DNA of 64,000 nt, taken from assembly GCF_028826105.1 (NCBI RefSeq), contig NZ_JAQGPL010000001.1, positions 187,501 through 251,500 on the forward strand. The letters run 5' to 3'. The notes beneath the pieces were generated by a model that worked only from the letters and a program-made list of their open reading frames with translations, was not told where the DNA came from and searched no databases. Each line of letters begins with the position of its first letter. The stretch's first letter is position 1. Below, in pieces: positions 48,039-58,103 of the stretch. The DNA comes from Paenibacillus humicola (GTDB lineage: Bacteria; Bacillota; Bacilli; Paenibacillales; Paenibacillaceae). The translations under genes were made by a program, and so were the position numbers.

Positions 48039-51000
48039 TTACCCTTTAGCGAACCACTTTTTTCTCCATAAAACGATACCCAGCAAAACGGCCGCCAGCC
48101 CCGCCGCTTGAACGGGCAGGTGACTGGTTTCTCCGGTTTTGGGAAGCTCGTCCGTGCCTTGCGGCGGCTTGCCAGAAATGCCTCCAAGCGGAACACCGCT
48201 GTCGCCGTCAATTGTCGTACCCTGACCTGACGGCGGGGTTACCGGTTTGACCGGAGGTGTCACCGGCTTGACCGGAGGAGCCGTCGGAACAGTCGGCGGC
48301 GTCCCCGTAATGATCGGCGGCGTCGTCGGATTGCCCGGAGGTGTCGTCGGCCCACCTGGAGGTGTCGTCGGTCCACCTGGAGGTGTCGTCGGTCCACCCG
48401 GAGGATTCGTCGGCCCACCTGGAGGTGTCGTCGGACCACCTGGAGGTGTCGTCGGTCCACCTGGCGGATTCGTCGGACCACCTGGAGGATTCGTCGGTCC
48501 ACCTGGAGGATTCGTCGGACCACCTGGCGGCGTCGTCATCGGATTGTTCGGAATATCCAGCTCAACGCCTGCGGTGGAATTGATCGTGACCGCGTGGTCG
48601 CTGTCGTCCAGCTGATATCCGGCCGGTGCCGCCGTTTCTCTAACGACATAGTCGCCTGCCGGCAAATTGTTGAATACGATTGAGCCGGTCGAATCCGTCG
48701 TCAGCGTATTCAACAGCGTAAGGTCATCGCCCGATTTCTTATAAAGCTCGAAGGTGGCTCCGCTAAGCAGCACGGTATCGTCGTCAGCGTCCACTTTCTT
48801 AATCGTGAGCGAGCCTCTTTCCCCGCTGCCGGTGCCCGATCCGCTCGAAACACCGACAACAACGTCCGTGGTCGTTTCCTTGGTGACCGTGGTTACGTTA
48901 TTGCCGCTCAGGCTGGCGGTATTCGATACGGTGTCATAATTTTTGGCGGTAATCATGGATTGATATTCCAAAATATACGCCGATGTGATCGGGTGCAGGA
49001 AGCTCAGCTCGAAGGATTGCTTTCCGCTGTTATCGGTTTGAATATCCAGCGTGTAGTCGGTATCCTTCGTTAATTCGACGCCTTTGGCAAGACTTCCGTT
49101 CGCTGCGACCGTCGTGGCGTACAGATGGAACGAGTCCGGCAGCAGAATCTGGTTGTCCGTTGGCGTATCGGTCAGCTTCGCATCGTTGACCGTCGACTGA
49201 CTGCTGTTGATATTGACGGTCCAGTTGATTTTGTCGCCGCTTTGTACGCCGGTTTTATTGACGTATTCGCCCCCGTGGGGGATGGTGACATAAGCCATCA
49301 GGTTCTTCGATACCTGGTCGGAGCCGTCGAACAGCTTCGCCGTATTGGTAACGGTGCTGTCGATCAGCTGGCCCGCGAGACTCGTCTTGAACTTCACGAA
49401 GTACGGAGACGAAATCGGTTTATCGAAAATAACCCTAAGCGTATTGCTGTTATCGACCGAATAATGATAGTAGGTGTCGTCCACGACCGTACCTGGAATT
49501 GCGTTTCCGTTGGCCGGAATCGTCATGTTATACACAGCCAGCGAAACCGGAACGAGCTGCTGGCCCGATTCCAGCGGGTCCACCAGAACGGCGTTCTCAA
49601 GCGTTTTGCCGTTATAGTTGATCCCGATGTTCCAGGAAAGTTCCTTTGAAATTGCGTTGTAGGAACCCGACTTGAACCCGTTGTTTTTCACTTCGCTGCG
49701 CGGCACGAACGAATTGTAGACCGTTTTCGTCTGCGACGAACCGTAAACGTCGGTCCACGTGACCGTCGTCAGGTTGTCGAAGTTGCTGGTGCCGCTGGCA
49801 GGATCGATCCCATCGTAGTTGAACTTGGTCGTGTAGTAGATCGAGACAGCCGCGGACAGCGGGTGCGTGAACGTCACTTTAAAGCCCGCATCGCCGGAAA
49901 CCGCGCTGTCGACCGTATAATCCGTGCCTTCGACCAGCGCCGTGCTTCCCTGCTTGATCAGCAGCGATCCCGGTACGAGTTGAAGGCCTTTGTGGTAAAA
50001 ACGATCTGTCACGACAACATTGCTCATCGGCTGTTTGTCTTTGTTAAGATCGATTTTCCAGCTGACCGTCTTGGCTTGATAATCGATAGCGCCGACGCCT
50101 TTGGCCAGAACCGACTGCGTAAGACGATGCGTAACCGAATAGCTGGCTCCGCTGCCGACCGTAACGTCGTTCCGGACCGTAGTGTCGTTGATGACCCGGT
50201 CAACGGCCTTTGTTCGATACACGATTTGATAAGCGGAAGTAATGCCGCTGTTGAACTGCACCTTGAAGCCGTTCTTCCCGGTCGCTGTCACGGGCGTTAC
50301 CGTAAATTGTCCGGTCGCTTCATGCCCGAGTATTTCCTTGCCGCTGGAATCCAGCGTAACGGGAAAGACATGGACGGAGCCCGGAACAAGCGCCAGCTCA
50401 TCGTCGAACAAGTCGGTTACCGAAGCGTCGGACTGCGCAATCGACTGCCCGTCATAGTTGTATTTGATGGCCCAATCAATGGTCTGCGCAATCGGATCGT
50501 ACTTGATCACCGACTTGCTCAGAGGGCCGCCGCGTTGAACTTCAACGGTTGCGGATGCTTCAACGGACGGCAGGTTGCTTCCTTCGAATGCAGCCGTATT
50601 GGTATACGAGTTTCCATTGGCGCTGCCGTTAATCGGGGTCGTATACTGAATGCGGTAAGCCGAATGGATCGGGCTGTCCGTGAAGTTGACTTTAAGCACA
50701 TTGCCGTCCGTATGTACCGTGTACTTGCTGCTGTCGACAGGCGCTCCTTGGCTGACCGTTCCGTCCAGATTGACGTTCAAGTCATAGACGGATACGGTGA
50801 CCGGAACACCCAAGCCTGCAGGGATCGAATCGGTCACGACGGCATTTTCCACAGTATCAAGCGCCTTGTTCACATCGACGGTCCAATTGATGTTTTGCGC
50901 GTTGAAGCCTGCGGCCGTACCGCTTTTCTCAATGGTCGAGCTTACGTCCGGTCTGAAATGAAGCGTAAAAACCTGTTCGCCGGATCGAATCGGAATGCTG

Positions 51001-51476
51001 ACCGTCTGCGTCGTGCTTCCAGTCATATGGGAAACATCGAATTGCGTATTAAAGGAAAGCGTTCCATGAATATTGAAATGCGATTCAATAAAATCGTTGA
51101 ACGTAATGACGACCTGGTGCGTCGTATGGTCGGCGCTGAAAGTCCCTACATTCTCGTCGCCTGATACAAGAGGCCCATGGATATCGTTATATAGTAAAAA
51201 GGCCTGGGGAAGCGTGAAGGTGAATTCATCCCCGGCATGATAACCATGGCCATCCGGCAGCGACCAGTTATAGTCGAGCTTCACCCTGGAATTCTGGTCA
51301 TAAACCGTGTCGGTTACCGGATGTCCGGCGGAATCGTAAACCGACATCGTTACACTATCGATGATGTTGTCCGGGATGGCCGCCGCACTTGCTTGCGTCA
51401 GGAAGCCGAACCCGTAGTTGCACTGCAGAAGCATCATGAACATGACGAGCAGCGCGCTGACCTTTCTCTTTACCAT
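48039..51476 (-). CDS. LPXTG-anchored surface adhesin with repeated Ig-like domains
   Basis: A 1145-residue cell-wall protein. The signal peptide (MVKRKVSALLVMFMMLL, cleavage near QASAAA, residue 32) is followed by a collagen-binding-like N-terminal domain (about 33-180). Then come about five repeats of 125-140 residues (180-873), each with a W(T/A/K)(V/I)-containing strand, a (L/V)VPGS-type turn and an (S/P)(I/L)(S/T)SAY-type ending. A SpaA/Cna-B domain (about 886-978; LTIKKVDADDD, YVVRETAAPAGY, consistent with a Lys-Asn isopeptide bond) follows, then a TTPPGGP repeat stalk (980-1050), LPKTG at 1111-1115, a membrane segment and a basic tail. The class-D-like sortase encoded at 53.2 kb is the likely anchoring enzyme. 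Ligand unknown. Confidence 0.85.
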   Translation of the reverse strand: MVKRKVSALLVMFMMLLQCNYGFGFLTQASAAAIPDNIIDSVTMSVYDSAGHPVTDTVYDQNSRVKLDYNWSLPDGHGYHAGDEFTFTLPQAFLLYNDIHGPLVSGDENVGTFSADHTTHQVVITFNDFIESHFNIHGTLSFNTQFDVSHMTGSTTQTVSIPIRSGEQVFTLHFRPDVSSTIEKSGTAAGFNAQNINWTVDVNKALDTVENAVVTDSIPAGLGVPVTVSVYDLNVNLDGTVSQGAPVDSSKYTVHTDGNVLKVNFTDSPIHSAYRIQYTTPINGSANGNSYTNTAAFEGSNLPSVEASATVEVQRGGPLSKSVIKYDPIAQTIDWAIKYNYDGQSIAQSDASVTDLFDDELALVPGSVHVFPVTLDSSGKEILGHEATGQFTVTPVTATGKNGFKVQFNSGITSAYQIVYRTKAVDRVINDTTVRNDVTVGSGASYSVTHRLTQSVLAKGVGAIDYQAKTVSWKIDLNKDKQPMSNVVVTDRFYHKGLQLVPGSLLIKQGSTALVEGTDYTVDSAVSGDAGFKVTFTHPLSAAVSIYYTTKFNYDGIDPASGTSNFDNLTTVTWTDVYGSSQTKTVYNSFVPRSEVKNNGFKSGSYNAISKELSWNIGINYNGKTLENAVLVDPLESGQQLVPVSLAVYNMTIPANGNAIPGTVVDDTYYHYSVDNSNTLRVIFDKPISSPYFVKFKTSLAGQLIDSTVTNTAKLFDGSDQVSKNLMAYVTIPHGGEYVNKTGVQSGDKINWTVNINSSQSTVNDAKLTDTPTDNQILLPDSFHLYATTVAANGSLAKGVELTKDTDYTLDIQTDNSGKQSFELSFLHPITSAYILEYQSMITAKNYDTVSNTASLSGNNVTTVTKETTTDVVVGVSSGSGTGSGERGSLTIKKVDADDDTVLLSGATFELYKKSGDDLTLLNTLTTDSTGSIVFNNLPAGDYVVRETAAPAGYQLDDSDHAVTINSTAGVELDIPNNPMTTPPGGPTNPPGGPTNPPGGPTNPPGGPTTPPGGPTTPPGGPTNPPGGPTTPPGGPTTPPGGPTTPPGNPTTPPIITGTPPTVPTAPPVKPVTPPVKPVTPPSGQGTTIDGDSGVPLGGISGKPPQGTDELPKTGETSHLPVQAAGLAAVLLGIVLWRKKWFAKG
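48329..48537 (-). repeat. 21-bp tandem repeats encoding a proline-rich stalk
   Basis: Nine to ten copies of a 21-bp unit encode TTPPGGP or TNPPGGP (last copy TTPPGNP). It spaces the adhesin domains from the cell wall. High identity between copies makes copy number prone to change by slippage. Confidence 0.9.
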
Positions 51477-51550
51477 TTTCTGTATGTTGCCTCCATTTCT
51501 GCTAGCAACGAAGTTGCTAACTTGAGTCCAAAGAAGGTGTTATCGTTCAA
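51470..51550 (-). CDS. Possible 26-codon leader peptide overlapping the adhesin start
   Basis: TTG at 51550 is preceded at ten bases by a near-perfect SD, AGGAGGGAGG (51561-51570). The frame (beginning MNDNTFFGLK) runs 26 codons, and its TGG-TAA overlaps the adhesin ATGGTAA. The adhesin itself has only a GGAGG 13 bases upstream. The arrangement suggests translational coupling. No homologue is recognised, so coding is an inference from signals. Confidence 0.45.
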   Translation of the reverse strand: MNDNTFFGLKLATSLLAEMEATYRKW

Positions 51551-51671
51551 ATAAGCGGTTCCTCCCTCCTATCAATTTTCTATCATACTTTCCTGTCTCT
51601 GTTATATACAGGATATTGATTCATCCTTCATTATATATCGGAGGTCCGATCAAATCTATATCCGCAGGGAA

Positions 51672-51702
51672 AATAAGAAATACGCACCATAGGTGCGTAT
51701 TT
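51672..51702 (-). terminator. Terminator behind the transglutaminase-like gene
   Basis: A perfect 11-bp stem AAATACGCACC/GGTGCGTATTT with a three-base loop, T-rich afterwards on the minus strand, 39 bases after the stop codon. A TATAAT box (minus strand, about 51624-51629) beyond it may belong to an adhesin promoter. Confidence 0.75.
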
Positions 51703-51740
51703 AACAATCATTTGCTATTTTAAACTATAATAAACCATTA

Positions 51741-52547
51741 CTAGTAGAATTTAGTTGATTTATAGCTGGATTCATTTTTATACATGGCAGCAGCTTGTCC
51801 GCTTTGGATCAGGGCTGAGTCGTAGGTCGTATCGATCGTGACCCATTTCTTCAGGTCTTTGAGGTACACTTGATTCCATGCGTGATAGATAGCGGGGTTA
51901 TGCGCTTCATATCCCATGACCAGCTTGGTGGGAATGCCCTGGCTTCTGGCCATCGCGGCGAAGAGCGCAGCATAATCATAACAGATTCCTCGGTACGAAG
52001 CGTAAATCTTATCGAGGTTCGGGACGTAGTTCCCTTCAACCGTCTGCGCTTTTTTGAGGTCATATTTGTAGTTCTTCGTTATGTAGGTATAAATGGCCGC
52101 AACTTTATCCTTATCCGACTTGAGGTTTGCGGTTAGACGTTTGGCTTTCAGTACGGCTTTGGTTGTTGGCGTCCAATCGATGATCGGGATGGATTGCAGG
52201 AAAACGGCGTATTCGTTCTGCATATTCAGCGAAACGGTTTGCTGCGCGACGACTTTATATTTGTTTCCGCCGATTGCGGCCCCGACGATCACGGTGTAAT
52301 CGCCGTTTCCCATTTGCAGCGGGTAATTGGCCCCTTGCTCAAACGGATAATCATACTTGACGTTACCTTTGCTGATGCGTACGATTCCGGCCTGGCCGGT
52401 TTGGAGCGGATAGTCGAGTCGGATGATTCCGTCGGCTAAGGAGCTTGTGTCAACGAAGGAAGGGTTAGAGTCGGCATATGCGGCTAAAGGAGCAGATAAC
52501 AACATAAAAACGACAAAAAACGACAAAAAGAGCGCGTTTTTAGACAC
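51741..52547 (-). CDS. Secreted transglutaminase-like (papain-fold) protein
   Basis: A 268-residue exported protein (signal peptide of about 25 residues ending AAYA-DS). The C-terminal transglutaminase-core domain has the full triad: Cys in RGICYDYAALFAAM (about 189), His in IYHAWNQVY (about 223), Asp in TIDTTYD (about 239). The N-terminal half (about 30-125) is beta-rich without name. The family includes cross-linkers and cysteine proteases. It starts at GTG with AAGGGAGAG seven bases upstream, and that SD lies in the 3' arm of a riboswitch. Placed between sortase and adhesin genes, it may process or cross-link surface proteins. Confidence 0.82.
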   Translation of the reverse strand: MSKNALFLSFFVVFMLLSAPLAAYADSNPSFVDTSSLADGIIRLDYPLQTGQAGIVRISKGNVKYDYPFEQGANYPLQMGNGDYTVIVGAAIGGNKYKVVAQQTVSLNMQNEYAVFLQSIPIIDWTPTTKAVLKAKRLTANLKSDKDKVAAIYTYITKNYKYDLKKAQTVEGNYVPNLDKIYASYRGICYDYAALFAAMARSQGIPTKLVMGYEAHNPAIYHAWNQVYLKDLKKWVTIDTTYDSALIQSGQAAAMYKNESSYKSTKFY

Positions 52548-52661
52548 AAAAAATACTCTCCCTTCGGTATCTGGCTGCCATCTTAAGGAAATTTAAGGAA
52601 GGCCCTTTAGTTTTGCGTCTCCAGCTTTCGCGGGATTTGCCTTTATCGGTAGAAAGTACCG
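52548..52661 (-). promoter_or_regulatory. Cyclic-di-GMP-I (GEMM) type riboswitch, copy 1
   Basis: On the minus strand: GGCAAATCC, CGCGAAAGC with a GAAA tetraloop, GGAGACGCAAAACTA, a GGGCCTTCC arm with a variable hairpin, then GATGGCAGCCAGATACC. This order (GCAAA..., GAAA tetraloop, GACGCAAA, GG-C-CU, AUGGCAGCCAG) is the GEMM-I aptamer. The 5' ACTTTCT can pair with GGGAGAGT just before a T-run and the GTG start; this arm contains the SD. Whether the ligand turns expression on or off is not evident from sequence. A small hairpin CGGTA-TACCG at the 5' edge may compete with this pairing. Confidence 0.85.
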
Positions 52662-53049
52662 AAATATATGTACTTATACCTAGTACTATAGCATAGGTTT
52701 TTTTGGTTTGCTAGAGAAAATTACAAATTTTCTACAAAATTCCCCTTTTGGTGAGACTTCCGGTCGAAAAGAGGCGGGTCTCGTTATAACGACTATTTTG
52801 CTAGATTGTGTGGGGAGAAAGATCCATTCGGCGGGAGCGCGTCCGGGCACCGGATTCAATGATTTGTCCCGATGGGGGAGGTTAAAAGGCCGGATCGGTC
52901 ATGCGAACCATGCCGGGAGAAGCGGTTGGATTCGAAGGATGTAGGATGTGTTATTTTATCGCTTCGCTGGGCTTTTTCGAGGGCGGAAGGAGGGCGCTTG
53001 AATATGCGACAAGCTATTCCGGAATAAGGAATTCATGCGGCACCATACT
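52662..53049. other. Region between the two riboswitches, no gene found
   Basis: About 390 bases, AT-rich near 52680-52740 and mixed beyond. A minus-strand TATAGT at about 52685-52690 could serve copy 1, but the -35 is weak. No open frame with an RBS follows copy 2; minus-strand frames contain stops within a few codons. It may be the remains of a second riboswitch-controlled gene. Confidence 0.45.
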
Positions 53050-53170
53050 TTATGGAGACACAAAAAAACTTTCCCTTCGGTAACTGGCTGCCATCTTAGG
53101 CTGTGCTAAGGAAGGCCCTTTAGTTTTGCGTCTCCGGCTTTCGCAGGATTTGCTTTTTTCGTGGAAAGTA
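53050..53170 (-). promoter_or_regulatory. Cyclic-di-GMP-I (GEMM) type riboswitch, copy 2, leading to a three-codon frame
   Basis: Nearly identical to copy 1 through the aptamer (AGCAAATCC, GAAA loop, GGAGACGCAAAACTAAAGGGC, GATGGCAGCCAGTTACC). The arms ACTTTCC/GGAAAGT are followed by seven T. The frame GTG-TCT-CCA-TAA starts where copy 1 has its gene. It begins about 24 bases after the sortase stop without a visible promoter, so it lies in the 3' end of the sortase transcript and could gate readthrough. Confidence 0.85.
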
Positions 53171-53193
53171 TCGATCACGTTCGTATTCCGCTC

Positions 53194-53880
53194 TTACAGC
53201 GTGCTATCTTTCGTTTCTACAAGCTTTCCTTTTACAATGAGACGGTGAGTCGGGTGTCCCATCGGATGGCAGGTGACAAGCGTAATTTCCCGGTCTTTGC
53301 CGTTGCCTTCCAATACCCAGACGTCCGTCGGTTTTACATATAACTTCTGATCCACTTTATAGATGAATTGCTTGGTTCCCGTGTCCACTTTAATCAAGTC
53401 GCCGACCTTCATTTCGTCGAGTCGGTTGAAGTTTTTCCCGTAGGTTAGATTCCGATGGCCGGCGATTGCATAATTGCCCACTTCGCCCGGCTTGCCCGTA
53501 TGTGCGATGCTGGCAACGGAAACCAGCATATGCGCCTTCGTCGCGCCGGTCAAAATCGGCAGCTTTAAATTGATTTTATCGATGGTCAGTACGCCTTCGG
53601 GCTTGTACTGGGGCGGGATTTTCTTCAATGCCGGCTCCGTTTGCGGCTGCTGCGGCTGGGTTTCGTCCGAGACCGGAACCGTATTGACCGCCTGCTCGCG
53701 GGCAGCATCCGGCTCGGAATCAATCTGCGGGTCGGGCTGTTCGAGCTCCTTCAAATTGTCCTGCCACTCGGACAATATTTTTTGCTGCTCGTGGGTTTCA
53801 TAGCGGTCCTTAACCGTCGGATAGAGAAAGATGCCTATGCCGAGGATCATGCAGGACAGCGCCACTAATCGTCTTGCCAT
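53194..53880 (-). CDS. Sortase (class D-like)
   Basis: A 228-residue membrane-anchored transpeptidase. One N-terminal membrane segment (about 5-22), a Glu/Gln/Pro-rich linker (to about 90), then the sortase barrel with catalytic His in IAGHRNLTYG (about 143), Cys in TLVTCHPMG (about 205) and Arg in THRLIVKG (about 214). The TLVTC pattern fits class D/E-type enzymes. The LPKTG adhesin encoded 1.7 kb downstream is the obvious substrate. The ATG at 53880 has AAGAAGGG upstream; the longer open frame is unsupported. Confidence 0.87.
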   Translation of the reverse strand: MARRLVALSCMILGIGIFLYPTVKDRYETHEQQKILSEWQDNLKELEQPDPQIDSEPDAAREQAVNTVPVSDETQPQQPQTEPALKKIPPQYKPEGVLTIDKINLKLPILTGATKAHMLVSVASIAHTGKPGEVGNYAIAGHRNLTYGKNFNRLDEMKVGDLIKVDTGTKQFIYKVDQKLYVKPTDVWVLEGNGKDREITLVTCHPMGHPTHRLIVKGKLVETKDSTL

Positions 53881-54122
53881 CGAATTCCCTTCTTTGCCTC
53901 TATTTTTGTTATCCTCTATTATACCCTTCCATTCCGGCACATGCCAGCAGAGAGAAAGCTTGCCGGGACGGCATCGACAAAACGGAATCTATTTCTTTAT
54001 CTAGGAAAAAGGGGTAAGATCATATTATGGATGCCGCACTACATAATCGTATGCTTGCCGGGTTTGACAAGCGAACAGCATCAAGCGGTACAAATTCCAA
54101 AACAAAAGGAGAGATCACCCAC

Positions 54123-54755: not shown

Positions 54756-57700
54756 TTATTTTTGGCTGAAATCGTAATAGAACTTCGGCTGTTCCCCAAG
54801 CAGCACCTTATAAATATCGTCATTCGACTGCATGACGCCGGTAAGGAACGCCTTGTACGGACGGTCCGCGACGTTCAGAACGCCCGAATTGTAGCGCTCC
54901 GCCCAGGAGCCGATGCCTTGCCAATACCGGCCCAGAGGAGCCTGGTCCACGTAGTTGAACCAATGGGCGCCTACGACATAGCCGAGACTGGCGACGCCCT
55001 CCACGTAGTTGCGGTAGCGCATGCCCCGCTGGAACTGGTTCACGGCCGCATTCGGCAGGAGCGGCTGCAGCCCTTGCTCCCCGGTGCCGTAGCCGAATTC
55101 GCTCATCAGAATCGGTCTGCCGCCCGATTTCGAATAAACATCCTTCAGCAGGTCGGATTCGATTTTATACGAATAATAGTTGATGCTGATGACATCCGAA
55201 TATTTGCCTTCGACCTCCGCCAGCACGTCGCGGAATTTCGCGTTGTGGAAGGCGGTCGTAATCCAGCGGTCCCCGAGCAGGAGATGGTTCGGATCGTATT
55301 TGTGGTAAATCCGCGAAACCGACCCGTAGAACGTATCGAGGTAATACCGGAAAAACATATCCATGTCCGCCCATGATTGCGAAGTGCTAACCGGAAGGTC
55401 CGCGTCGCCCAGCTGGCTGAAGGAGGTAAAGCTTGTCCCCCAGTTCCGGTTGAACGAATCGATCGTCTGGTATTTATCCTTCAGCATTTGGACGAGACGG
55501 CCTTTAATGGCGGCGGAGCTGGCTTTCAGCTTCGGCACGTTGGAATAAAATTTCTGGTAATCGAATTCGTTGCCGATGAAGTACCCGATCAGATACGGAT
55601 CGTTTTTGTTCGGCGGCAGCGCTTTGGCGAACGCCTCATCGATCTTCTGTTCGGCTCCCGGCGCGAAAATATCGAAGATCGAAATGCCGTCCAGCTTGTT
55701 CCAGTTCAAATCCAGCGGCAGCATGCGCGTATAAGGAAACTTGTTCGCGCTGCCGTACTTTTCGGGCGAGTAGCCGCCGGCGCTGTTAAAGCCCCATTTC
55801 TTCAGCCGGCCGACCGCTTCCTTATAGAAGGATGCGTCTGTCGGAAACGCTCCCGTTTTCTTGAATTTATTCGCCATATAGAACGAGTAGCCGTCATGAT
55901 CCGATCCGATAAAGGCCGGCTTGTACTGCCCGTCGGAGGAAGGAATCGATTCGAATTCCTGCTCCCGGCCTTTGATCATCGTATACGTTTCATCGGTCGT
56001 GATGCCGTTCATCCCCAGGCTGAAGAAAACGTCGCCGTTTGGCGTTTTCAACACCCTTCGGCTGCCGAGCTGCTGAACCGCGAAAAACCCGGTGCCTTTA
56101 ATGCCGTATTTGGCCGCGCTGCCGGATAACCCTCCGTAGCTGTCAAGATCCGTAGGGGGCTGCAGGCTGCCGTAATAGGAGGCGTCCGCCGATGCGTCGG
56201 CTTTCAGCTGCTGATCGCTGGTCACCTTCTCCGGAAAATTCGCTGCGGCGATTTGGCCGAACGTATCGACCTCGTAATCGCTGCTCCCGTTCAGCTTATA
56301 TTTGCGGATCGGACTCGGCTCCTTGCCGTCCTTGACGGCATACGTTTCGAGCACGCTGTAGCCGGTCAGGTTCAGCGGTCCCGAGTAGGCTTTGAACGAA
56401 GACGCGTTGTCCCAGCGGTAATAGATCCGCGCCCCCTGGCTGGCCGAAGACAGCGTAACCTGAAGCGCTCCTGCGCTGCGGGCCGTCTTGACGCCGACGG
56501 AAGCGGTGATTCGATTGATCGATACCCTGGAAAGCTGCGGAGACCAGGCTTTGGCGGCCCCGTTCAGCTGGATTTTCAAATAGCGCGTTCCCGCCGGAAA
56601 CGAATTGGCCTCGACGGCATACTGCTGCCAGTTGCCCGAAGCGCTGCCGACCGGGAACGAATTGGCCGCGACCTCCTTGTAGGTCTTGCCGTCCGCCGAA
56701 GCGAAAATCCGGTTTTTCTCCATGTCGATCCCGGTGAAAAAGTAGCTGTAAAAGAGCACGGACGTGATATCGGTGTTCGTATGATACACAATGCTTCCCG
56801 GTGCGGTCGACGTACGCGCCATCCGTTTCGCGTCGCTGCCGAAATAACCGGGGTGATCCGTCGCGATATAAATATTCGTCCGGTCGGCCAGCCGCTTAAA
56901 ATTGTCGAGCGAATCGTACAGCCCGGCAGCCGGCGCCGGCGGCGTTCCTACCGGCACATAATCGTAAAGGGATACGGCGCTTACTTCCGTTTTGCCGGAA
57001 TCCGGATGATAGACCGCGCTTGTTTTCAAATGCAGCCTGCCCAGCACCGGAATCGGCGCCGTATAATGCTTGCGCTTGAGCGATGTCCGGGGATCGCTGC
57101 CGTCCGTCGTGTAGTAGATGGCGGCTTCCGGTTTGGCGCTCAAGACCACCATGCTTCCGTAAGGGACGCTGCCCGAAGGCAAGCCGGATGCTACGCCGTT
57201 GCCGGGCGGCTTTACGGGAGCGGTCGTCGTCTTCACCGCCGTTGTGAACGCCGCGGGCGATAACGTCACGGGCTCGGATGCCGGCGGAGCGGTGACTGTC
57301 GGCTCCGGCGATGACGGAGCGGAAGCCGATGGAGCCGGCGCAGACGCTGCCGGAGCGGTTGCCGGCGGAGCGGACACCGCGGGCGCAGGCGCTGCCGGAG
57401 CATACGTCTGCGGAGCAGGCTCCACAGGCGCAGGTGCTGCCGGAACGGACGCTGACGGATCGGGCGCCGCCGTCAAACTGCCGGGAACCTCCTTCATCGA
57501 CAGATCGATTAAGGCGGCCGCTTCCTCGCGGGTCATGGCGGCTTGCGGCCGGTACGACCAAACGTCGTCCTGTTGGGCGACGTCTTTACTGTACCAGCCA
57601 TGGGCAATAATACCGCTGATTCCTTCCGCCGCCCAGGAATCCGGCTGTTCGCTGAACTTCAGCGCGGCGCCGGAAGAGAGCCCCTGCTTCTGCGCATACC

Positions 57701-58103
57701 GCCAGATCATGGCGGAGGCTTCTTCCCGTTTGACCGGCTCATTCGGCGAGAAGGTCGTATCGGACGTGCCGTTTACAATACCGGCCTGATAAGCGGCTCG
57801 TATGCTGGAGGCAGCCCAGTGGCCCCGGATATCCGTGAAAGGCGCAGGGCTTCCCGAATCCTTCAGCTGAAAAGCGGTCGCGGCCAATTTAGCGAACTGA
57901 GCGCGGGTCAGCGTTTGCTGCGGAGCGAATTCGCCTCCGGTAATGCCATTCACTACGCCGAGTGCCTGCAGGTCGCGAATATAAGTGAAATAAGGGCTTG
58001 TTTCCGGAACATCTTTAAAAACCGCCGTCGTTGCACTGATGCCCGTACCGGTAAGCGAAGTACAGGCGATCATGACTGCGGCTGCAATCGATAATTTTTT
58101 CAT
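54756..58103 (-). CDS. S-layer-anchored glycoside hydrolase (SLH domains plus agarase-like TIM barrel)
   Basis: A 1115-residue exported protein. A signal peptide (1-24) is followed by three SLH domains (about 28-205; FKDVPETSPYFTYIRDLQALGVVNG, FTDIRGHWAASSIRAAYQAGIVNG and a third), which bind pyruvylated wall polymer. Then an Ala/Pro/Ser linker (about 210-300), a chitobiase-like beta segment (IYYTTDGSDPRT, near 335), a discoidin-like part, another IYYRWDN segment (near 555) and a C-terminal TIM barrel (about 640-1110). Candidate catalytic glutamates lie in FIGNEFDYQ (about 844) and LMSEFGYG (about 1002), a clan GH-A pattern most like GH50/agarase-type enzymes. Substrate unproven. AAAGGAG precedes the ATG. 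Confidence 0.8.
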   Translation of the reverse strand: MKKLSIAAAVMIACTSLTGTGISATTAVFKDVPETSPYFTYIRDLQALGVVNGITGGEFAPQQTLTRAQFAKLAATAFQLKDSGSPAPFTDIRGHWAASSIRAAYQAGIVNGTSDTTFSPNEPVKREEASAMIWRYAQKQGLSSGAALKFSEQPDSWAAEGISGIIAHGWYSKDVAQQDDVWSYRPQAAMTREEAAALIDLSMKEVPGSLTAAPDPSASVPAAPAPVEPAPQTYAPAAPAPAVSAPPATAPAASAPAPSASAPSSPEPTVTAPPASEPVTLSPAAFTTAVKTTTAPVKPPGNGVASGLPSGSVPYGSMVVLSAKPEAAIYYTTDGSDPRTSLKRKHYTAPIPVLGRLHLKTSAVYHPDSGKTEVSAVSLYDYVPVGTPPAPAAGLYDSLDNFKRLADRTNIYIATDHPGYFGSDAKRMARTSTAPGSIVYHTNTDITSVLFYSYFFTGIDMEKNRIFASADGKTYKEVAANSFPVGSASGNWQQYAVEANSFPAGTRYLKIQLNGAAKAWSPQLSRVSINRITASVGVKTARSAGALQVTLSSASQGARIYYRWDNASSFKAYSGPLNLTGYSVLETYAVKDGKEPSPIRKYKLNGSSDYEVDTFGQIAAANFPEKVTSDQQLKADASADASYYGSLQPPTDLDSYGGLSGSAAKYGIKGTGFFAVQQLGSRRVLKTPNGDVFFSLGMNGITTDETYTMIKGREQEFESIPSSDGQYKPAFIGSDHDGYSFYMANKFKKTGAFPTDASFYKEAVGRLKKWGFNSAGGYSPEKYGSANKFPYTRMLPLDLNWNKLDGISIFDIFAPGAEQKIDEAFAKALPPNKNDPYLIGYFIGNEFDYQKFYSNVPKLKASSAAIKGRLVQMLKDKYQTIDSFNRNWGTSFTSFSQLGDADLPVSTSQSWADMDMFFRYYLDTFYGSVSRIYHKYDPNHLLLGDRWITTAFHNAKFRDVLAEVEGKYSDVISINYYSYKIESDLLKDVYSKSGGRPILMSEFGYGTGEQGLQPLLPNAAVNQFQRGMRYRNYVEGVASLGYVVGAHWFNYVDQAPLGRYWQGIGSWAERYNSGVLNVADRPYKAFLTGVMQSNDDIYKVLLGEQPKFYYDFSQK

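Follow-up and report, generated by a model that had tools for sequence, protein, structure and literature searches.

Does a group of genes for a sortase, a secreted transglutaminase-like protein and a wall-anchored adhesin, lying beside two riboswitch aptamers of the class that binds cyclic di-GMP (c-di-GMP), act as one unit, and if it does, which way does the second messenger drive it? The question is raised by a 6-kb locus of Paenibacillus humicola (48039–53880, with all of its features on the minus strand), positions being those of the window, by which we mean the whole stretch of 64,000 nucleotides analysed. A first reading of this DNA from its letters (the sequence-only reading) had proposed that the transglutaminase-like protein (hereafter TG) might process, release or cross-link the adhesin according to the level of c-di-GMP. 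From the analysis described below we judge, with a probability of a little over one-half, that the locus represents a c-di-GMP-wired adhesin module of the Bacillota in which TG would release the adhesin when c-di-GMP is low.

Anatomy and conservation of the locus

The anatomy of the locus is certain, and every element that the sequence-only reading had named on this one strand is present by Rfam model, Pfam profile or alignment. The covariance search with the c-di-GMP-I model (RF01051, gathering score 35 bits), which had been set beforehand as the test of the two GEMM-I aptamers, gave 69.6 bits (E 1.4e-11) for aptamer 1 (53076–53164) and 67.6 bits (E 4.3e-11) for aptamer 2 (52563–52651). The sortase gene (53194–53880; PF04203, E 1.6e-31) encodes 228 amino acids from the ATG at 53880, the coordinate given in the sequence-only reading, and as this ATG has the Shine–Dalgarno (SD)-like sequence AAAGAAGGGA ahead of it, it is more likely to be the true start than the GTG at 53940 chosen by the open reading frame (ORF) caller. 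The best NCBIfam match of the sortase (class C, 126.8 bits) falls under its cut-off of 160, and we assign it to no class. TG (51741–52547; 268 amino acids; PF01841, E 7.1e-25) starts with GTG immediately 3′ of aptamer 2, has an N-terminus that by eye resembles a signal peptide and carries an intact triad (C189-H222-D239) that is invariant across 24 aligned homologues; its fold model has a pLDDT (predicted local distance difference test) of 91.5. The adhesin (48039–51476; 1145 amino acids) gives domain profile matches to Big_8, to Collagen_bind in five stretches and to SpaA, has Pro-rich repeats, and ends in an LPKTG sorting motif (48132–48146) with a hydrophobic tail, which together mark it as a sortase substrate (TIGR01167, 23.2 bits; cut-off 15.9).

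In the whole genome (5.93 Mb) these elements stand almost without company. The locus holds the only two GEMM-I aptamers, the sole sortase (E ≤ 0.001), the sole LPXTG-anchor match (E ≤ 0.1) and the one close TG (E ≤ 1e-40) that searches of the genome found, and seven GGDEF domains lie outside it. As the one sortase adjoins its one recognised substrate, a functional link between sortase and adhesin is likely; substrates with other signals could escape detection.

Co-conservation of the three genes with the riboswitch, on which the sequence-only reading had made its proposal depend, was found in relatives. The loci compared are the best 80 of 555 from a scan with a TG alignment, ranked solely on TG similarity. 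A model derived from 29 GEMM-I sites was used to look for their aptamers. A GEMM-I aptamer lies directly 5′ of TG in 77 of the 80 (it was not found at L063, L111 and L112), as a single copy in 50 of the 77 and in at least two copies in 27. A same-strand sortase gene is directly upstream in 60 of the 79 loci with enough sequence, and of the 48 flanked by 5 kb or more both ways, 40 have an LPXTG ORF or adhesin homologue close by; the 29 nearest loci include 26 in which a sortase occurs together with an LPXTG protein or adhesin. The placement of the adhesin gene varies (3′ of TG, as in the window, 5′ of the sortase gene, or divergent) and the loci reach Cohnella, Brevibacillus, Syntrophomonas, Tissierella, Alkaliphilus and others. 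The module is thus conserved. Among 22 TG-positive genomes there are one to three LPXTG matches per genome. Many contigs of L079–L106 stop a few hundred bases past TG, so the downstream neighbour is invisible for much of the group with tandem aptamers.

A family survey, which sampled 295 genomes of a larger group, found TG in 120 and GEMM-I in 251; GEMM-I was present in 120/120 TG-positive genomes versus 131/175 of the others (raw counts, kinship ignored), and the 30 best-scoring TG loci, one of which is the window itself, all have the aptamer. Conversely, at the family's 30 strongest GEMM-I loci the longest downstream ORF in no case matched TG. The TG family is therefore nearly always accompanied by GEMM-I, whereas GEMM-I serves many targets; at its strongest family sites (L003–L032) the downstream ORFs include what look by eye like GGDEF proteins, chemoreceptors and response regulators. 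Two further arrangements were seen among the relatives. L147 and L100 have a triple GEMM-I before TG and another before an LPXTG gene. In L038 and L039 an extra GEMM-I (L038:1376–1463, L039:1318–1405) precedes, some 8 kb away from TG, the gene for a secreted protein of 275 amino acids, and between that gene and TG lie a minus-strand ORF of 273 amino acids whose C-terminal end is sortase-like and the gene for a large VPKTG protein.

The predicted switch ahead of the transglutaminase-like gene

The polarity of the switch was read from the layout of its RNA. In the window and in the 77 relatives with an aptamer the purine run that closes the aptamer doubles as the SD sequence of TG, with the start codon shortly after; in the window this is AAGGGAG within the 3′ strand of helix P1, followed by a T run and the GTG start (52548–52564, from reading the sequence and comparing loci), so that aptamer 2 ends inside the TG ribosome-binding site. 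At least three of the five SD core bases pair in P1 at 77 of the 78 sites. The predicted mean unpaired probability of this 5-base core falls from 0.30 in the unconstrained fold to 0.09 with P1 formed, the core being more accessible without P1 at 59 of the 78 sites and equally so at five. The two P1 strands also match one another within loci, the mean pairing energy being −8.7 kcal/mol for own strands, −6.9 when strands are swapped across loci and −4.8 when they are shuffled, and the own energy is under the cross-locus median at 60 of the 78 sites. In the GEMM-I aptamer class ligand binding stabilises P1. As the SD sits in P1, the layout predicts that c-di-GMP likely turns TG off. A terminator was considered as the universal expression platform and rejected: a T run comes after P1 at many loci but is missing from others (for example L048, L056 and L065), so that hiding of the SD is the common denominator.

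Several results weigh against this polarity. At 14 of the 78 sites the core is less accessible without P1 than with it. When the SD was defined as seven bases there was no difference (0.47 free, 0.45 with P1), and the 5-base core was adopted after that test, once the outer bases had proved unpaired in both states. Nor can the aptamer class alone fix the polarity, because class I includes both OFF and ON switches: the class I switches confirmed in Clostridioides difficile are OFF, with one gene 3′ of a class I aptamer that rose (PMC6200980), and in the Bacillus cereus group a GEMM-I switch is ON (PMC7423583). A possible anti-P1 hairpin, CGGTA-CTTTC-TACCG, with the 5′ P1 strand in its loop (52647–52661) was read from the sequence and appears in one predicted fold of the window, and similar sequences occur in many relatives.

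The two aptamers of the window have peculiarities of their own. Aptamer 1 sits between the sortase gene and TG, 29 bases past the sortase stop, and is followed by a 3′ P1 strand, a T7 run and a four-codon stub, GTG TCT CCA TAA (53050–53075). From the sequence this is a duplicate of the aptamer 2 region: aptamer 1 with the stub GTGTCTCCATAA is a diverged local copy of aptamer 2 with the start of TG, identical in 112 of 141 alignment columns. Two aptamers precede TG, and the platform of the first consists only of P1, T run and stub; depending on ligand, its P1 and T7 run might end transcription that reads through from the sortase gene. The spacer between the aptamers (about 350 bases, 52700–53060) has no ORF of 80 or more amino acids on either strand. 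The base before GCAAA, which we take to match position 20 of Vc2, is A in aptamer 1 and G in aptamer 2; it is G in 71 of 79 sites, and aptamer 1 shares its A with 7 of the 78 other TG-linked sites. The A in aptamer 1 is, if so numbered, the change linked with recognition of cyclic GMP-AMP (cGAMP), a class I RNA with G20A having been crystallised with 3′,3′-cGAMP (PMC6274999).

Proposed adhesin release and the alternatives to it

The sequence of events that we favour would run as follows. The sortase would fix the adhesin, which is of collagen-binding type, to the cell wall. When c-di-GMP is plentiful it would be bound by the GEMM-I aptamer, P1 would close and the SD of TG would be hidden, and the T run, where present, may also stop transcription. 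At low c-di-GMP TG would mainly be produced, and once secreted it would process the anchored adhesin, most likely by a cut in the part nearest the wall, which would free the cell from the surface. Of the control that the sequence-only reading had imagined, the part that concerns TG is favoured by the SD-in-P1 layout, which points to production of TG at low c-di-GMP and hence to release. Direct riboswitch control of the adhesin as well does not hold in the window, where no Rfam riboswitch above cut-off lies 5′ of the adhesin gene, a point that tells against the scheme as a whole, and it does appear to hold in a few relatives. In L082, L085, L100 and L110 the LPXTG protein near TG has a GEMM-I of its own, the 3′ strand of which also belongs to a terminator stem with a T run (in L100 the LPXTG frame starts in the second ORF downstream), and these layouts, assigned by eye and with one energy fold each, are predicted to be ON switches. 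The L082-type adhesin occurs in 3 of the 295 family genomes, with GEMM-I ahead of it in all three, so reciprocal control of this type would be rare; as L145 matches L082 at 100%, the three genomes do not add three new species. A search for adhesins under c-di-GMP switches of type II gave none above cut-off in 15 loci, mostly clostridial.

A candidate for the cutting site is found shortly before the anchor. In most partner adhesins acidic residues are followed by [VIT]-P-x-G shortly before LPXTG, and the window has VPLGG (48180–48194) at this place. The general form ([DE].{0,3}[VIT]P[^P]G within 100 residues of LPXTG) matched 40 of 50 tails in TG loci (47 of the 80 loci being represented), 24 of 29 LPXTG proteins from genomes with TG (a set that shares some proteins with the first), 1 of 23 Bacilli controls (L163, from a TG-negative genome) and 6 of 22 clostridial controls. 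For a stricter form the corresponding numbers were 43/50, 16/29, 1/23 and 1/22, the single Bacilli match (L165) being in the sole TG-positive genome of 33. These counts should be read with the knowledge that both expressions were written after the TG set had been viewed, that the partner adhesins are partly related, and that the controls were the best-scoring anchors per search, with no random draw (7 of 30 Bacilli and 8 of 29 clostridial control loci gave no filtered tail). In the Clostridia the general form does not track TG (1 of 7 tails from TG-positive and 5 of 15 from TG-negative genomes), which counts against the proposed cut and weakens the motif as a TG-specific site; some clostridial matches resemble, in our own reading, the VPxGY of CnaB domains, and all were retained in the counts. 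The P-x-G motif is therefore a weak candidate for the site at which TG might cut, to be used as a lead only.

The most specific version of the scheme, that the module is a widespread Gram-positive equivalent of the LapA/LapG system, with RNA in place of protein as its control, in which a transglutaminase-fold cysteine protease, translated at low c-di-GMP only, cuts just before LPXTG, with an adhesin ON switch added in some lineages, can be put forward only tentatively. In comparisons with TG, true transglutaminases score about equal to LapG, which counts against the favoured reading. TG may instead be a real transglutaminase that would cross-link the anchored adhesin to itself, to peptidoglycan or to a surface. 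We consider this unlikely because the SD in P1 predicts that TG is made at low c-di-GMP, and a cross-linker made at that time would be the reverse of the usual logic of biofilms. That argument depends on the polarity, which is less sure in the window than in the family because both window copies can form an anti-aptamer helix in which GGAGACGCAAAA pairs with the downstream T run and GTGTCT(CC) (53050–53164 and 52545–52651). At −18.9 and −12.1 kcal/mol these two helices are the strongest of 77 sites (median −5.5), and they appear in whole-leader folds of the window. As modelled, the helix covers the start codon and could reverse or blunt the switch, so that in the window c-di-GMP would free a start that is masked without ligand, or TG would be made at a near constant level. 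This seems to us quite unlikely, since the strong helix is limited to the window and few relatives (it is weak in most of them) whereas the SD-in-P1 layout is common to all 78 sites, and since a ligand-bound P1 would still mask the SD.

Release of the adhesin must also be set against the view that TG performs some other surface or wall task under c-di-GMP and that sortase and adhesin genes adjoin it merely through clustering of surface genes. The varying order and strand of the adhesin gene, the eight of 48 full-flank loci in which no LPXTG neighbour was found, the many other targets of GEMM-I and the failure of the P-x-G motif to follow TG in Clostridia are all as expected from such clustering; it becomes improbable when one considers that the set survives rearrangement from Paenibacillus to Clostridia and that the sole sortase and the sole LPXTG protein of the genome adjoin TG. 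An adjoining gene (54756–58103, minus strand) encodes a protein of 1115 amino acids with SLH and chitobiase-type C-terminal domains and a weak match to glycosyl hydrolase 42, a second surface protein that is not sortase-anchored. With a single sortase, a single LPXTG protein, one TG and the only GEMM-I aptamers found all lying within 6 kb, this genome provides a clean test case for the favoured reading.

Relation to known systems

The sequence-only reading knew of no description of this combination as a system, and our searches met with none; one pairing within it was already in print. Tandem c-di-GMP-I aptamers before COG1305 in Bacillota have been tabulated (p 1.08e-34; double 94%, triple 6%; PMC12452182) as one row of a statistical table in a paper whose main text contains neither 'sortase' nor any word starting 'adhes'. 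That entry covers tandem arrangements only, whereas 50 of our 77 loci have a single aptamer and 27 have two or more. Full-text literature searches for c-di-GMP riboswitch, transglutaminase and sortase gave no description of the module; subscription literature was mostly outside their scope and an earlier description is possible. The pairing of GEMM-I with COG1305 is thus already known, and a module of sortase, TG and adhesin with GEMM-I was found in no paper. The Streptococcus pyogenes TglA (structure 9crn) shares 18% identity with TG, and a literature search on TglA found no paper.

In the B. cereus group the LPXTG collagen-binding protein of cbpA/cap is turned on through a GEMM-I aptamer, Bc2, as is predicted here for the adhesins of L082, L085, L100 and L110; the available text makes no mention of a TG partner (PMC7423583). 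The closest parallel is that of CD2831/CD3246 and ZmpI/PPEP-1 in C. difficile, where a sortase-anchored adhesin of collagen-binding type likewise lies beside a secreted-enzyme gene under a type I aptamer (PMC4591827, PMC6200980, PMC6366702). There type II switches turn the adhesins on and a type I switch turns the enzyme off (PMC4591827, PMC6366702), so that at high c-di-GMP the enzyme is OFF and the adhesin ON, whereas OFF control of the window enzyme is predicted from layout; the cleavage sites are near the wall anchor, as is the candidate site for TG. The parts differ: PPEP-1 is a zinc metalloprotease controlled by termination and its adhesins have type II aptamers, whereas TG has a transglutaminase fold (Transglut_core), its SD lies in P1 and the window adhesin has no aptamer. 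In the few relatives with both genes controlled, both aptamers are of type I, unlike the type II/type I pairing of C. difficile, and if our reading is true reciprocal control would in those lineages come from one RNA family. With the SD built into P1 the switch would be compact, and its probable polarity could be told from the sequence.

The enzyme itself finds its counterpart in Pseudomonas fluorescens, where LapG, a transglutaminase-like Cys-His-Asp enzyme, is encoded beside the large adhesin LapA, which is lost at low c-di-GMP (PMC3032545). LapG belongs to DUF920/BTLCP, is controlled by the protein LapD and cuts near the N-terminus of the adhesin (PMC3032545), whereas TG matches PF01841 and is predicted to be under RNA control; a Pfam scan of TG (E ≤ 0.001) matched PF01841, PF04473 and PF13471 only, with no match to DUF920/BTLCP. 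If true, our reading would supply both a function and a substrate for a family of secreted TG-like proteins (2166 matches at E ≤ 0.001, not all necessarily such TGs), and c-di-GMP-controlled release of adhesins would then have at least three wirings, LapD/LapG, PPEP-1 and the present module, two of them using an enzyme of the transglutaminase fold.

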